Source of the DNA: a virus
Direction: 5' to 3' (one strand)
Length of the DNA: 39,639 nucleotides
IMG/VR virus record: IMGVR_UViG_3300046171_000070
Coordinates: 1 to 39,639 of that record
How positions within the stretch are numbered: position 1 is the first letter of the stretch; every line of letters begins with the position of its first letter. A program made the position numbers and the translations under genes. The notes under the pieces are model-generated. The model worked only from the letters and a program-made list of their open reading frames with translations. It had not been told where the DNA came from and made no database searches. This document shows, in pieces, positions 13,647 to 24,054 of this stretch.

Positions 13647-14087
13647 ATGAAAAAACTCTTATTGTTGCTTTTGCTATATGTTGTACCTGTTAAATCACAG
13701 CCAGTTGTCCCAAATTTCACTACGGGAACACTCAGTAGCACCACGAATACAACCACTTCAATCAATGAGACTATCACTTCTACAGATTATCATGGTAATT
13801 CTTATGAGTATTCTGTTACTGGATTGGGAGTCACAACCAATGGATCAGTCGCTCCAAATACAACGAATGTTGATGGGACAGTAAATGGACAGAGTTATAC
13901 ATGGACAGGTTTAGATTTATCAAACGGAAACAAACCAGTGTTCAACCTAGCAAGTCCCAGTTCTGGCAACGCATTTCAATATACAGAAACCTATCGTGGC
14001 CCAGGTGGGGTTTCAAACGTAACAGTAATACAAAGAAATATAGAATCAACTTCAGTCGTCACAAGTACCTCAGTCTTCTCTCAGTAA
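13647..14087 (+). CDS. Exported protein with signal peptide
   Basis: 146 residues. Signal peptide MKKLLLLLLLYVVPVKS, then a Thr/Ser/Asn-rich beta-patterned domain (TTGTLSSTTNTTTSINETIT, YRGPGGVSNVTVIQRN). It begins 4 nt after the previous stop and is probably co-translated. Its 3' half overlaps the next frame (13901-14683) by up to 187 nt. Unknown function; likely periplasmic or surface-exposed in the host. Confidence 0.65.
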   Translation: MKKLLLLLLLYVVPVKSQPVVPNFTTGTLSSTTNTTTSINETITSTDYHGNSYEYSVTGLGVTTNGSVAPNTTNVDGTVNGQSYTWTGLDLSNGNKPVFNLASPSSGNAFQYTETYRGPGGVSNVTVIQRNIESTSVVTSTSVFSQ

Positions 14088-14683
14088 TACTGCTATCTCC
14101 TGCACAGGTCTTAGCTAATGCAGTAAGTCAGTCAAATAATGGCTCGGTTACGAATATGGCTATACAATCCTTAACAGGAAATATGACAACTAATCAATAT
14201 GGTGGAAACATAGTTTGCCAAGGGCCGACATTAACAATTAGTCCGTTCTCAACTTTTGGAGCGAACTATCAAAAACCTTATCGGGATTTTTATGAAACTC
14301 CTGTGTACGATCCAACAGATGCTAATGATGATGGCGTACCAGATAACCCAGGGAATATTCTTTACTATCAACAGAATTATTCTGGAACGAATAAGGATAG
14401 TTATGCTGCCAACTTTGGTATCTCTGCATCTTTTAGTATTCCATTAGATAGAGGATTACAAAATCAATGTAAAAGTGCAGCAGATACACAGATTAATATA
14501 CAAAAACAAGTACTGGAAAATAAACGATTAGATTGGCAGATTGCTCGGATTCGTGAATGTGGAAAGCTAAAACAAGAAGGTATTATGATTGCTAAATCCA
14601 GCCCATTTTTTGATGTTTGTAAAGATATTTATTTAGTACCAAAGGCTAATCAGGTATTACCACATACTCACAAAATAAAATAA
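13901..14683 (+). CDS. Exported protein, start uncertain
   Basis: The mature protein is clear: a signal-peptide core (HKYLSLLSVILLSPAQVLA followed by NA) at about 14048-14120, then a domain with an Asp-rich DPTDANDDGVPDN loop like calcium-binding repeats, a helical segment (QKQVLENKRLDWQIARIREC) and several cysteines. The only canonical start in frame is ATG 13901, which gives an odd ~45-residue basic extension read entirely inside the preceding gene. A non-canonical start (for example ATC near 14042) or a -1 frameshift from the preceding gene are alternatives. The stop overlaps the candidate small RNA at 14671-14747. Confidence 0.6.
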   Translation: MDRFRFIKRKQTSVQPSKSQFWQRISIYRNLSWPRWGFKRNSNTKKYRINFSRHKYLSLLSVILLSPAQVLANAVSQSNNGSVTNMAIQSLTGNMTTNQYGGNIVCQGPTLTISPFSTFGANYQKPYRDFYETPVYDPTDANDDGVPDNPGNILYYQQNYSGTNKDSYAANFGISASFSIPLDRGLQNQCKSAADTQINIQKQVLENKRLDWQIARIRECGKLKQEGIMIAKSSPFFDVCKDIYLVPKANQVLPHTHKIK

Positions 14684-14747
14684 GCAATAGGTCTTTCCCC
14701 CAGGGCGTTGGCTGCTCTCACAGCTCGATGAAGGGCCTATCGCTTAT
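14671..14747 (-). ncRNA. Candidate independent small RNA
   Basis: On the minus strand ATAAGCGATAGG (14747-14736) pairs with CCTATTGCTTAT (14691-14680): 12 bp with one G-U. Within it are a GCTG/CAGC hairpin and a CTTC/GAAAG pairing. A T-rich tract (TTTATTTTG) follows. A promoter (14752-14779) places the start at the first bases of the outer stem. The wobble would be A-C on the plus strand, supporting minus orientation. It overlaps the last codons of the 13901-14683 gene. It lies 3' of the minus-strand late operon, so it could also be that operon's terminator. Confidence 0.55.
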
Positions 14748-14751
14748 AAAT

Positions 14752-14779
14752 ATTATACACAGAATTTTGCAGTAGGCAA
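14752..14779 (-). promoter_or_regulatory. Promoter of the candidate small RNA
   Basis: Minus strand: TTGCCT (14779-14774), 16-bp spacer, perfect TATAAT (14757-14752). The predicted start is at about 14745-14747, exactly where the outer stem of the RNA begins. No minus-strand protein gene lies downstream within reach. Confidence 0.6.
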
Positions 14780-14801
14780 GCACGGGTATTAACTTGCCTA
14801 C
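14772..14801. repeat. 9-bp perfect inverted repeat over the small-RNA -35
   Basis: GTAGGCAAG (14772-14780) and CTTGCCTAC (14793-14801) are perfect inverted copies separated by 12 bp. The left arm covers the -35 of the small-RNA promoter. No T-tract follows on either strand, so an operator or an RNA stem in the 3' end of the late mRNA is more likely than a terminator. Confidence 0.65.
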
Positions 14802-14807
14802 CTAGAC

Positions 14808-14842
14808 ACCCTATTCTTCGCCAAAATAAACAGGGTTTTTTT
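14808..14842 (+). terminator. Probable intrinsic terminator, plus strand
   Basis: ACCCT (14808-14812) pairs with AGGGT (14832-14836), with a possible TATT/AATA extension, followed by seven T running into the stop codon of the convergent gene. It would end the exported-protein operon. The loop is long, so strength is moderate. Confidence 0.5.
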
Positions 14843-15476
14843 ATTCTACCTTATCTTTCTTTTTTGTGAGCTTTTTTACTATTTGTTTTACTAAAGGTTT
14901 GACTGCGTTAAGAAGTAATGGACTACTGGCAGCGACCAAGCCGATAACAGCAGTAGATACAAGAGTAGAAACTTCTGGAATGTACTGATCTTTAAATGGG
15001 ACGTTTTCATAAAGCGTTATACACTCAATTAAATCATCGCCTCTTTTATGTCCGATGACACGTTCCAATCGTTTTTCGTTACGAAAGTCTCCAACCTCTT
15101 GATTCGATTTACCAGGACAGGGTTCTAACTTTATTTCTTCTTTCTTTTCAGGTGTCTTGGGTATTTCAGGTGTTTTAGATTCTGGGATATCAGGTGTTGT
15201 TATTGGTTGTTCTTGCTTTTGCTCTACAAGCTCTATCCTTTTTCGGTCATAATTTATTGGAACGAAAGAAGGTATTTTTCCTTCTGGGCAGCTATAAAAC
15301 GCTCCATTAACATCATCTTCTATTATCTGTGTGTTTGTAACCGAAGCATCTCTATGCGTCTTTACGCAGCCTGGTAGATCAATATTAGGTAAAGGTACGT
15401 TTAATACGGGTAAAGGAGTATAAATATAATGATTAACAGTTGGAATCTCTGGAATTATAATCTCAGGTATCTCCAT
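14841..15476 (-). CDS. Hypothetical proline-rich protein with C-terminal membrane segment
   Basis: 211 residues, last gene of the late minus-strand operon. The N-terminal part is rich in IP/EIP/LP repeats (MEIPEIIIPEIPTV, LPVLNVPLPNIDLP). The centre has a PE/PK-rich linker (TPDIPESKTPEIPKTPEKKE), and the C-terminus has a hydrophobic segment (VSTLVSTAVIGLVAASSPLL) followed by a very basic tail. The linker-and-anchor layout suggests a virion or envelope-spanning protein. Similar proteins exist in marine cyanophages (recollection); function unknown. Its ATG overlaps the upstream gene by 14 nt. Confidence 0.6.
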   Translation of the reverse strand: MEIPEIIIPEIPTVNHYIYTPLPVLNVPLPNIDLPGCVKTHRDASVTNTQIIEDDVNGAFYSCPEGKIPSFVPINYDRKRIELVEQKQEQPITTPDIPESKTPEIPKTPEKKEEIKLEPCPGKSNQEVGDFRNEKRLERVIGHKRGDDLIECITLYENVPFKDQYIPEVSTLVSTAVIGLVAASSPLLLNAVKPLVKQIVKKLTKKKDKVE

Positions 15477-20205: not shown

Positions 20206-23200
20206 CTAACTTGCTTTACCAAATCCGACAGCCTGATACGTGAAATTTCTATCAACTGAAGCATTTGAAGAATTTTTAAAGTGAACACTAAAACCCGTTC
20301 CAGAAACACTTGATATTTCAAAAAAGTCTCCAGACTGCATATTTTGTGCAGTAATACCGACAGAAGGTAAGCTACTATTTACACCACCAAGACCAGATGT
20401 TCCAGTAAAGAAGGGGCTTTGGAACGTGACTGCTTTTGCTGATGCTCCACTTGCTGTAGTTGCAAGACTCTGTTCTGTTCTTCTTTGCATAGAAGCTGTA
20501 TAACCTAGTTGGAAAACTCTAATATCCTGTGCTGGATCATCACTTGTTAGATTTACTTTAAACTGAAAACCTCTTCCTTTATAAGTTCCATTTGTAAAAG
20601 TCTGAAAACCAGAATAAGTAGGAGATCCACTATTAGGATTATCTTGAGTAACACGAACTAGCATTTCTGCGTTTACTTCAGTTGCAGTTAATCCTTCAAA
20701 GTCTCCTCTTGCGTCTAAATCTGGTATTGAATCAAATAAATCTGAAGGATAAAATGCTTCTGTTAAGAAATGACGTTTCAAATCAAGACTATACACATCT
20801 CCTAAATCTAAAGTAGTACTTCCTGGTGCTCCACCAAATTCATAAGTACCTAATGGTGCAATACCTCCTACATCATCAAGAGATGAAACTAAATCAAAAT
20901 CTGTAATACTATCAAATTGTCCTACACCAGTAAGATTTAAAGAATTTGTTGGGGCATCAAAAGCAACATTAGTTTTTGTTCCTTGAAATTTTGGAACATC
21001 TAAATCTTCTCTTCTTGTTTGGATTAATTTTGCATCAAGAGTATCGGGTAAGTCTAAAATTACACTTGCTTCACCAGCACTAAATCTACCCCCATCATCT
21101 TGAAATTTTAAAATATACTCTCCTTCAAGAAGTGGAACATCAGCAGAGGTTGTATTACCAGCTAATGCTTTTACTAAATCAGTAGCGTTAGAAAAAGATC
21201 CCGTTCCATCGGTCTTTGAAGAGTGTCTTACATAAACACGGCCACCATGAGTAACATCTAAATCTGTTGCTAAATTCCAGCGTAATCGTACTTGTTTATC
21301 ATTTATTGGTTCTCCCGTTAGTCCTGTGACATCAGCAGGAACAGCAGTTTTACCAACAGCATTAAAAGTATCACTAGCATCTGTAGCACTAGGTTCTAGA
21401 GCAGCATTTAAACTACGAACAGATACTTCATAAGCTCCAACCTGTGAGTTAACAATTTCAAAATCAGGACTACTGGTTGTAGTCGAGACAACATTATTAT
21501 CTTTAAATCTATAGTTAACTAAATAGTTTGAAACACCAGTTACAGGCTGCCATCTAACGATTAATTTAGATACAGGCTGGTTATTAATAAGAACTATCAC
21601 TTCATTAGCTGACAATCCACTAGGAGGAGGCTTAAGAAGATTTAAAGTTGTAATTTTTTGAACTGGAATTGGCTGATTATCTTCAATAAACGCATATTTT
21701 TCGTTTACATAAGCTAGTGCTGTTATTCCATAATTAATACCATCGACTTCTTCGACAGATATAACTCGGAAAGACTGAGCAGAAATAGTATCGTTTTCAA
21801 GTAACCAAACACTATTAGAATTTGGTGTCTGACTTAAAGCACTATCTAAAGTAATTATCTTGCCTGATATTGCAGTTACATTTTTAGTTTCAACTGTTCC
21901 ATTTGGTAGTATTACACTTAATTTAGGGTTGTTTTCAGCAGATAAATCAGTTGAATCTGAATCATCTACAGTTATTTGAGTAGTCGTAGCAGTATTAATT
22001 CTTCCTCCTCTTCTTACTCCTGATCTCCCTGGATCGGCAATGCTGACAATCGTTCCAGGTCTAACAACAATTCCTGATTCCATTGAAGCAGAAAAAGTTA
22101 CTACTTCTGTTTCTCTTTGTTCTGTAAATAATATTGCTTTTGCAAATCTTCTAGCTTGACCTCGACTTGTGCAACCTAATGCTTTTACTCTTTTAACGTG
22201 TAATCCATATTTATTTCTATAAGCTGACTCTGCTTCTACTTCTTCATAATCTAAATCTCTAGTTTCCATATTAAAATAGGAAACTGCAACTACTGTGCTT
22301 CTAGTTTTTAAGCTGCTACCTGTATAGCTGAATCCTTCGGGGCCAACATTAGACAAAGTAAATAAGTAACTAGGATCTTTAGGACTATCTTGAGTAAGAA
22401 GTAATGCCCCTTCAGACCAAATAGGCATACATCTCATTATTCCCGATAAAGTATTTATGACATCAAAAGCTTCTACACTTGATTGAATATTTATATTGCA
22501 AGCAAATCTAGCTTCCTGTCCATTAAATCCATCATCAACAAGTTCGTTAGAAAACTTACTTGCAGTTACAAATGAAAATAAATCTAAATTACTATCAATA
22601 ATATGATTACCTAATCCATACCTTGTATTAGTAATTAAATCTAAAAGTATTAAAGCAGGGCAAGTTGTCCATTGAGCAGCACCCATTACTCCATTAAAAA
22701 TATATCCAGTTGGATAAACTATTCTGCCAGTTTGTAAATCTACAGTTGGAGTTCCTGATGAGTTAGCTCCTGCACCTGGGATTCTTACTTTTACTCCTCT
22801 AACTCTAAACTTTCTAGCAGGAATCCTAGTAAAAAATTCTGAATCTAAACGCAACCTTGTGTAAGCACAGTCAGGATAAGTACTTGAATCATCTTCTAAT
22901 TCTGAAAAAGATTGCCAGATTAAATCTCTTGCTATTCTATCGGTACTATTTTCAGAGGTTTTTGTAACACGCACATCTACAGGATGAGCACCAGTAAGAG
23001 CAATTCTATATTCTCTGTTATAAGCATCTGCTGTTCTTCCTCTTATAGTGTCGGAGAGAACTGTAGTAAAACCTCCTCCGTTATATTGAATTTGAATATT
23101 AAAAGTAACTTGGGAACCATTTATATCTCCATCCTCTTCTAAAATTTGCAATGTAGGTACAGTAACAGTAACTTTTACAGCATCTAAATCAGTATTATTA

Positions 23201-24054
23201 GTAAGTTGTCTAGTTACAGGATTACCATTTGGTACTTCTACTCCCACATTAAAGACAGAAGAACTTCCCGAAACTTTAGACATTTTAGTTTGAGAACTCG
23301 TTCCAAAACGAACATCAAAGTCTATATTTTGATGATTAAATTCAACATTCTGTGGATTAGTTGAATCAGCAGTAGAAGCTAAAATAGGAGTATCGTCTAG
23401 GAAAATATCTTTCTTTGCAGCATTGAAATAAGCAGTAGTGCCTTTAGTTCTTCCTTCTTTTGAAGGACTTGAAAAACCTTCTATCTCACCTTCAGAAATA
23501 AGATCAAGTAAAGTAGCAAACTGTTTACTATGTAAATTATCTGGAGTAATAGTAGGAGGACTTCCACCTCCACCCTTGTTACCTCCTCCACCAGAACCAG
23601 CAATACTTGGCCCTAATCCAGCATTATGAACACGAATAGTATTAGCAATAAAAGTATGATGTCCTTCAACAGTTAAGTTATAGACAGTATGTTCTCCAAG
23701 TTCAGTACGTTTAACAATCGGTCTTAAGTGACCAAATTCATCAACTAAACAATCATCAGTCTTTAACGTGCCAATACCGACAAACGCATTAAATTGATTT
23801 AAAACCCAATGGTTTGGTGTTGCATCTAATTCTTTACCGCCCCATATTTTATATCTAGTAACAGATTCTTTTTCATGCTCATGTACTTTTAAAACTTTGG
23901 CATGATAAATAGTACCTTTATCATCGAAACTACAAACAATATCACCAACACTAATCTCTTTAATTAATTTAGTGCCACCTGGTATAGAAACAGGAGTATC
24001 ACCAGTAAAGCAACCTCCACCTCCTCCTGCTATGTACTTATTTGTATCCGTCAT
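20206..24054 (-). CDS. J: Tail tip/host specificity protein J with inserted Hint domain
   Basis: 1282 residues, the lambda J-type central tip protein. Recognisable J segments: HSKQFATLLDLISEGEIEGF just after the insert, FTRIPARKFRVRGVKVRIPG, QARRFAKAILFTEQRETEVV, and fibronectin-like domains from about residue 790. A ~130-residue Hint (intein-like) domain occupies residues 15-144 between two glycine-rich linkers: Cys15 in CFTGDTPV, DATPNHWVL with His82, and C-terminal HHTFIANTIRVHN ending at Asn144, followed by Ala145. No homing endonuclease is present. Overlaps the I gene by 4 nt. Confidence 0.9.
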   Translation of the reverse strand: MTDTNKYIAGGGGGCFTGDTPVSIPGGTKLIKEISVGDIVCSFDDKGTIYHAKVLKVHEHEKESVTRYKIWGGKELDATPNHWVLNQFNAFVGIGTLKTDDCLVDEFGHLRPIVKRTELGEHTVYNLTVEGHHTFIANTIRVHNAGLGPSIAGSGGGGNKGGGGSPPTITPDNLHSKQFATLLDLISEGEIEGFSSPSKEGRTKGTTAYFNAAKKDIFLDDTPILASTADSTNPQNVEFNHQNIDFDVRFGTSSQTKMSKVSGSSSVFNVGVEVPNGNPVTRQLTNNTDLDAVKVTVTVPTLQILEEDGDINGSQVTFNIQIQYNGGGFTTVLSDTIRGRTADAYNREYRIALTGAHPVDVRVTKTSENSTDRIARDLIWQSFSELEDDSSTYPDCAYTRLRLDSEFFTRIPARKFRVRGVKVRIPGAGANSSGTPTVDLQTGRIVYPTGYIFNGVMGAAQWTTCPALILLDLITNTRYGLGNHIIDSNLDLFSFVTASKFSNELVDDGFNGQEARFACNINIQSSVEAFDVINTLSGIMRCMPIWSEGALLLTQDSPKDPSYLFTLSNVGPEGFSYTGSSLKTRSTVVAVSYFNMETRDLDYEEVEAESAYRNKYGLHVKRVKALGCTSRGQARRFAKAILFTEQRETEVVTFSASMESGIVVRPGTIVSIADPGRSGVRRGGRINTATTTQITVDDSDSTDLSAENNPKLSVILPNGTVETKNVTAISGKIITLDSALSQTPNSNSVWLLENDTISAQSFRVISVEEVDGINYGITALAYVNEKYAFIEDNQPIPVQKITTLNLLKPPPSGLSANEVIVLINNQPVSKLIVRWQPVTGVSNYLVNYRFKDNNVVSTTTSSPDFEIVNSQVGAYEVSVRSLNAALEPSATDASDTFNAVGKTAVPADVTGLTGEPINDKQVRLRWNLATDLDVTHGGRVYVRHSSKTDGTGSFSNATDLVKALAGNTTSADVPLLEGEYILKFQDDGGRFSAGEASVILDLPDTLDAKLIQTRREDLDVPKFQGTKTNVAFDAPTNSLNLTGVGQFDSITDFDLVSSLDDVGGIAPLGTYEFGGAPGSTTLDLGDVYSLDLKRHFLTEAFYPSDLFDSIPDLDARGDFEGLTATEVNAEMLVRVTQDNPNSGSPTYSGFQTFTNGTYKGRGFQFKVNLTSDDPAQDIRVFQLGYTASMQRRTEQSLATTASGASAKAVTFQSPFFTGTSGLGGVNSSLPSVGITAQNMQSGDFFEISSVSGTGFSVHFKNSSNASVDRNFTYQAVGFGKAS
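23623..24012 (-). other. Hint/bacterial intein-like domain within J
   Basis: Codons 15-144 of J. Block A is C-F-T-G-D-T-P, block B contains T-x-x-H (TPNH), and blocks F/G are HTFIANTIRVHN. The residue after Asn144 is Ala, not Cys/Ser/Thr, so standard splicing chemistry lacks its last nucleophile. This is the arrangement of A/B-type bacterial intein-like domains, which cleave or splice non-canonically. Flanked by poly-Gly linkers (GGGGG before, GGGGNKGGGG after). Confidence 0.85.

Follow-up and report, generated by a model that had tools for sequence, protein, structure and literature searches.

A likely small-RNA gene with its own promoter at a hypervariable site between convergent phage operons

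Introduction

Is the folded sequence that lies between two convergent operons of a viral genome the gene for a small RNA, or a large terminator that happens to stand beside a promoter-like sequence? The original prediction, made without comparison to other genomes, favored the first answer, a small RNA transcribed from the minus strand by a promoter of its own and starting at its closing stem, and named as the alternative a terminator of the late operon with a chance promoter. Few phage small RNAs are known beyond a handful of model phages. As set out below, paired changes in relatives, the balance of G-U over A-C and the geometry of the -10 box support the first answer, without transcript data: the element is likely a promoter-driven gene for a structured small RNA that forms part of a new and modular family of phage RNAs; its transcription is inferred in the absence of RNA data.

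Results

Two operons converge on the element

The window, which is the whole stretch of 39,639 nucleotides analyzed, is a 39.6-kb viral contig with a siphovirus-like plan: the minus strand carries the genes for terminase, portal, scaffold, major head protein and a J-like tail protein, the plus strand those for a primase-polymerase and DNA polymerase A. A phrog_848 and a phrog_570 gene flank the point where the two operons converge. Among named phages, phrog_848 relatives come almost exclusively from phages of Synechococcus or Prochlorococcus (443 records), from which we infer that the host is likely a marine picocyanobacterium; a host search for relatives of P0001 in 84,980 prokaryote species genomes returned none.

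Three observations concern the genome at large. A near-identical direct repeat at both contig ends (42-133 and 39281-39373) suggests that the genome, of about 39.2 kb, is possibly complete and either circular or terminally redundant. The first ~146 residues of the J-like tail protein (20206-24054, minus strand) match the Pfam entries Hint, Intein_splicing and PT-HINT, and this tail tip protein may thus carry an N-terminal intein or autoprocessing domain. The phrog_650 gene (13647-14087) and the phrog_848 gene (13901-14683) share about 190 nt that are read in different frames, an overlap found in T4-like cyanophages too (PRAG_00053/00052, P-SSM3).

The features of the convergence region are as follows.

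13901-14683, plus strand: phrog_848-family gene, known from cyanophages and of unknown function; it closes the plus operon and is the 'exported protein' gene of the original prediction
14671-14679, minus strand (read 14679-14671): U-rich 3' tail UUUUAUUUU (DNA TTTTATTTT), an imperfect U-tract read from the sequence; possibly a weak intrinsic terminator of the element, by inference only
14680-14747, minus strand: structured RNA element of class C, supported by a shuffle-tested fold and covariation
14747-14736 with 14691-14680, minus strand: P1, the closing stem of the element, 12 bp with one G-U
14734-14729 with 14702-14697, minus strand: P2, inside P1
14728 / 14705-14703, minus strand: first 1x3 internal loop, after P2
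14727-14726 with 14707-14706, minus strand: 2-bp helix between the two 1x3 loops
14725 / 14710-14708, minus strand: second 1x3 internal loop
14724-14720 with 14715-14711, minus strand: P3 with a GAGA loop
14743-14747, minus strand: predicted transcription start on the first bases of P1, inferred from the position of the -10 box
14752-14757, minus strand: -10 hexamer TATAAT; it lies 4 nt ahead of the outermost (A-U) stem pair and 6 nt ahead of AAGC
14774-14779, minus strand: -35 hexamer TTGCCT, lying in one arm of the hairpin at 14772-14801; its spacer to the -10 hexamer is 16 nt
14772-14801, no strand assigned: second hairpin module, a perfect 9-bp stem whose minus-strand loop contains ACCCGTG; many relatives carry it, with or without the RNA element
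14808-14841, plus strand: hairpin followed by T7, likely the terminator of the plus operon as inferred from sequence; its minus-strand reading begins 6 nt after TAGAAT
14843-14870, minus strand: second promoter-like sequence, CTCACA-16-TAGAAT; it overlaps the stop codon at the 3' end of phrog_570
14841-15476, minus strand: phrog_570-family gene of unknown function, the 3'-most gene of the minus (structural) operon

The stem, promoter hexamers, inner hairpin and T-rich tail of the original prediction are all where it placed them, and the 12-bp closing stem has the single wobble claimed for it, a G-U on the minus strand. The interval it gave, 14671-14801, also takes in the separate hairpin at 14772-14801; the T-rich tract holds as T-rich, not as a perfect U-tract; and the antisense overlap with the end of the exported-protein gene holds only in part, being limited to 4 nt of the stem plus the tail.

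A longer repeat includes P1 (14680-14697/14730-14747). The minus-strand fold of 14671-14750 has an energy of -27.7 kcal/mol (z -3.59), equaled by none of 200 shuffles, and the covariance model R1 finds the element at 14676-14751 on the minus strand with 65.5 bits, the window being among its training sequences. A terminator scanner listed no Rho-independent terminator at the element; T-rich tails follow 97 of 239 stem units, against 863 of 4724 background windows (18%). None of three frames of the element holds a plausible small ORF, and a search for antisense targets within the phage itself gave a longest perfect complement of just 11 nt, made of A and T.

The fold recurs in a hypervariable array site

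Relatives were collected as several hundred partly overlapping IMG/VR loci by way of the flanking proteins, together with 50 that hold a 17-nt core; since these sequences are related, the counts are not independent, and the module families were recognized partly by eye. About 40 related loci of marine phages share the class C fold, and in nearly all of them it stands between these two convergent genes. The significant class C matches lie in the phrog_570 gap and point in the same direction as phrog_570, with a sole exception: at L449:3296-3373, a class C element of 49.5 bits stands outside the gap, nested in a longer repeat-like sequence. On the unrelated phage loci searched the class C model gave no significant match; a 14-nt pattern scan brought in mostly unrelated contigs, of use as negative controls. 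The elements of L003, L004 and L151 are identical to that of the window, and those of L397 and L400 have the same core with altered bases near P2.

The gap between phrog_848 and phrog_570 is highly variable. Of 179 distinct loci, 47 have overlapping or abutting genes and lack any intergenic hairpin; most of the others carry one to several hairpin modules, and an array in L473 holds about six in ~470 nt, which runs from TTGACT-16-TATAAT to a stem with T7 (CTTATTTTTTT). That the locus is a hypervariable array site was missed by the original prediction. At least six structural families (A, B, C, D, E and G) occur there, besides the short hairpins with an ACCCGUG loop; three are exemplified here.

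Family A: GAAGCUGUAGGCA...CUCUG..CGAAGAUGAUC
Family B: CUAACCACAGCUAACACUCCCUAGUUAG
Family C (window): typical member CAUCA...CNCUGCUCUGUUGGA

Downstream of phrog_570, L383, L386, L388 and L379 share a conserved intergenic sequence of ~180 nt, starting with GAACAACCAAAACC and ending with AGCAGTTGTTC; it seems to be a further RNA family that has a closing stem. At the same place L234, L393 and L398 have a purine-rich sequence starting CCAGTTCTTGATCGT..AACTGGCAAGCGAT, unlike the other modules.

Paired changes and wobble pairs point to RNA and to one strand

In a class C alignment built without structural information (A5), 88.4% of cells are paired and 14 of 22 pairs show changes on both sides; covariation is 0.479, against 0.219 +/- 0.023 in shuffled alignments, and none of 500 shuffles reaches the real pairing, both-side pair count or covariation score. 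Moving the partner by 1-3 columns destroys the signal. The 29 distinct class C sequences give 88.3% paired cells and both-side changes in 16 of 22 pairs, in a set that was found by covariance model and aligned to fit the structure; in the shuffle tests of class C stem changes overall, 0-1 of 500 match. For class B, 98.7% of cells are paired and its covariation is reached by 0 of 500 shuffles; its core stays constant under unrelated closing stems (AAGCAAAGG/CCTTTGCTT vs GAGTATTGG/CCAATACTT). This covariation is evidence that the RNA secondary structure of both classes is under selection. The original prediction would have been refuted by homologues lacking compensatory changes in the stem; such changes are present, and it stands on this count.

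The consensus folding energies of the two strands are nearly equal (-28.7 vs -29.1 for B, -28.8 vs -29.4 for C) and do not discriminate; the strand is thus assigned by orientation and by wobble pairs. Read on the strand of the arrays, the paired positions of classes B and C show G-U over A-C at 41:1, composed of 23:0 in class B, 13:1 in P2 and P3 of class C, and 5:0 in P1 of class C. A first count for class C gave 17:7, with P1 partly out of register; the 5:0 comes from hand-paired arms. The single wobble from which the minus strand had been predicted is thin evidence alone.

By eye, classes A to D have a small core in common, in which an A-U pair is followed by a 1x3 internal loop and then by 2 bp, usually with a hairpin, or by a helix. 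The 3' strand of the loop is C-rich (CUC, CCC, CAC or CGC). In class C the A-U pair is invariant (27 of 27), and the pairs that follow it covary.

The promoter places the predicted start on the closing stem

The promoter of the window, TTGCCT-16-TATAAT (14779-14752), agrees with the consensus at 10 of 12 positions. Taken alone it is not significant, as the region contains 16 promoter-like sites where 12.6 +/- 3.7 are expected; it gains significance from the comparison with relatives. Of 84 distinct cases in which a TANAAT box is followed by a stem of at least 8 bp within 25 nt, 56 have the stem starting 6-8 nt downstream of the box; with nine scrambled hexamers the share is 0-31%, and on the opposite strand it is 1 of 14. 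As these 56 cases comprise 24 different 5' arms, the fixed spacing is not the legacy of one inherited sequence. Sigma-70 promoters have their +1 about 6-8 nt after the -10 box, and the predicted RNA start therefore falls on the closing stem. That the promoter puts +1 at the 5' end of the RNA is a sequence prediction only, without 5'-end data, and the promoters are consensus matches only.

A box also overlaps the phrog_570 stop codon in ~100 loci; in 81 of about 100 such promoters it is preceded by CTGACA or CTTACA at a spacing of exactly 16 nt, and it occurs as TAGAAT, TATAAT, TAAAAT or TACAAT, with differing last amino acids. TANAAT at this stop is found in 0 of 47 loci without a gap, in 51 of 71 with arrays and in 36 of 37 with the second hairpin type; its absence where the genes overlap may partly be a coding constraint. 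Behind this second hairpin type, which ends in CTACTGC, a fresh TATAAT followed by the RNA is found in most loci that have an RNA, and loci without one go straight into phrog_848 with no box. As box and RNA are present or absent jointly, they are gained and lost as a unit.

Elements are exchanged and occur at other sites

Between the window and L151 all 68 bases of the element are identical, while DNA identity is 48% for phrog_848 and 69% overall for phrog_570. Similarity at 87% spans 14660-15148 (489 bp, on the phrog_570 side), which places a recombination edge close to the end of the RNA; the pattern is one of plain homologous recombination. Identical class B elements also stand behind different hairpins (L029, L037).

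Two further sites carry elements in the same direction as the upstream gene. The second site, between a RusA-like gene and the gene of a 235-aa protein (MENQTK..EIPNLGG), holds class A or B elements in sense orientation behind TTGACA-16-TAGACT. The third lies directly after SSB and holds the class B core, also in sense, nested in a terminator-like GGGG..CCCC hairpin with a T-run (CCCCTTTTTT).

Second site, class A or B, interchangeable: L441:1545-1612, L446:4413-4480, L470:10271-10345
SSB site, class B core: L471:5830-5897 (minus strand), L444:374-441, L028:432-499

The L028 element has CAA instead of CCC as the 3-nt loop strand. Elements occupy one or two sites per genome and no dispersed copies are seen; the window has one copy.

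No match among the RNA families searched

The search of Rfam that the original prediction had proposed matched no family: in Rfam 15 the window reaches no gathering score, ten relatives give no match at E <= 1, and four short stretches at E <= 10 give chance-level scores only. Neither the element nor a three-element array matched any of 50,697 phage records at the DNA level, and the exact 17-nt class B core is absent from the 84,980 prokaryote species genomes. Models R1 and R2 found no match in two T4-like cyanophages and a marine virus contig carrying phrog_848, a weak result without a positive control; two T4-like genomes without hits do not establish absence from that group. A Twister ribozyme, considered for the CUAACAC stretch of class B, was rejected for lack of Rfam support.

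The CfrI antisense RNA of cyanophage S-PM2 (Millard et al. 2010, described in PMC12197685) is likewise a marine cyanophage intergenic RNA at the 3' end of a gene; it differs in being about 225 nt long and antisense to psbA, without a modular closed stem and without arrays. The wcaG, manA, PhotoRC-II and glnA RNAs (PMC2864571, PMC9964418) are structured and were found by covariation in marine metagenomes or cyanophages; unlike the element they are cis-regulatory, mostly in 5' UTRs of metabolic genes, and are in Rfam, where none matches the window. Lambda OOP and P22 sar (PMC12197685) are short phage transcripts of similar size, independent units with their own promoter; they pair antisense to phage mRNA, whereas here the gene overlap is a few bases and the fold is conserved. 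The small RNAs C and D of phage T4 are stable and structured, of unknown role, in a cluster of several RNAs, but they sit in a tRNA cluster and are processed with the tRNAs. The put RNAs of HK022 are structured and near the start of a phage transcript, but consist of two hairpins that act in cis on RNA polymerase; the position of the element antisense to the neighboring operon does not fit them. Phage small RNAs in a hypervariable modular array are not described in the open-licence literature searched, and we consider the RNA families of this locus, for which there are no transcript data, an undescribed group of swappable genes for folded small RNAs in marine phages.

Discussion

The main rival, which remains possible and may represent a second function, is that the elements are complex terminators or 3'-end stabilizers of convergent operons, without independent transcription. 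For it speak the place of the elements, where operons meet tail to tail, the AAGC...GCTT bases of the closing stems, the T-rich tails (97 of 239 units), the SSB-site element inside the GGGG..CCCCTTTTTT terminator, and the plus-strand terminator at 14808-14841. Against it, the elements are not present wherever operons converge, 47 of 179 relatives having no hairpin; the inner P2 and P3 with their 1x3 loops are kept by compensatory change and are unneeded in a terminator; only one strand has the -10 box at a constant 6-8 nt ahead of the stem; promoter and RNA are gained together; and some elements lie upstream of genes. The terminator with a chance promoter thus fares worse than the small RNA, on account of the loci without a hairpin and the joint gain of box and RNA.

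Less probable, and not to be excluded, above all at the second site, is an RNA acting in cis on the transcript that it begins, as a put-like antitermination signal or a leader. The elements do begin at the predicted +1, near where put RNAs lie, and those of the second site stand between promoter and downstream gene. However, at the main locus the transcript would enter the plus operon antisense, with nothing to express, and tandem arrays of unlike elements, ending in T-runs, do not suit this role.

An intergenic hot spot for mobile hairpin DNA (REP/MITE-like or attC-like) would explain presence and absence, exchange between relatives, the sharing of all 68 nt of an element where the adjoining phrog_848 genes have just 48% DNA identity, and several sites per lineage; this reading is very unlikely, as the terminal arms covary without conserved sequence, orientation is fixed with the operon, G-U is tolerated and A-C is not, genomes have one or two sites without dispersed copies, and the 87% similarity to L151 through 489 bp fits homologous recombination. 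A self-cleaving ribozyme or tRNA-like decoy, suggested by compact closed-stem units in processed-looking tandem arrays, is equally improbable, as no ribozyme or tRNA model matched.

For the small-RNA gene, the comparison supports structure at the RNA level, the -10 geometry, the strand, gain and loss, and exchange; transcription, termination, stability, action in trans and the partner are inferred only. The structural operon may also read through into the arrays and carry them as its 3' UTR. A host-type sigma-70 RNA polymerase would begin minus-strand transcription on the first bases of P1 and produce a transcript of about 70-75 nt, stopping in the U-rich tail. Both RNA ends would be locked in P1, which would shield the RNA from 5'-end-dependent decay. 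The RNAs would then act in trans as stable protein-binding RNAs, decoys or regulators, with a common partner, and the locus would be a cassette site for RNA exchange, probably under pressure from the host. A common protein partner is proposed because the common core recurs in otherwise unlike RNAs, and pressure from hosts or rivals because the turnover of modules is fast. The protein-binding role in trans is inferred only, with function and partner guessed, and we hold it to be clearly less likely than not.

A bolder reading, to which we give well under even credence, sees a dedicated RNA-cassette locus of many families built around the common 1x3-loop core, each starting at its closing stem and acting in trans as decoy or regulator against host factors. 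Its carriers would be marine, probably picocyanobacterial, phages, in which single or tandem RNAs are gained, lost and exchanged like protein-coding anti-defence islands.

As a small-RNA locus, the site offers six or more new RNA families, promoters included, that lend themselves to direct tests, and the rule that the RNA starts on its stem can be used to find further genes of this kind. In the biology of marine phages, it may represent an RNA-based counterpart of the phage anti-defence islands.
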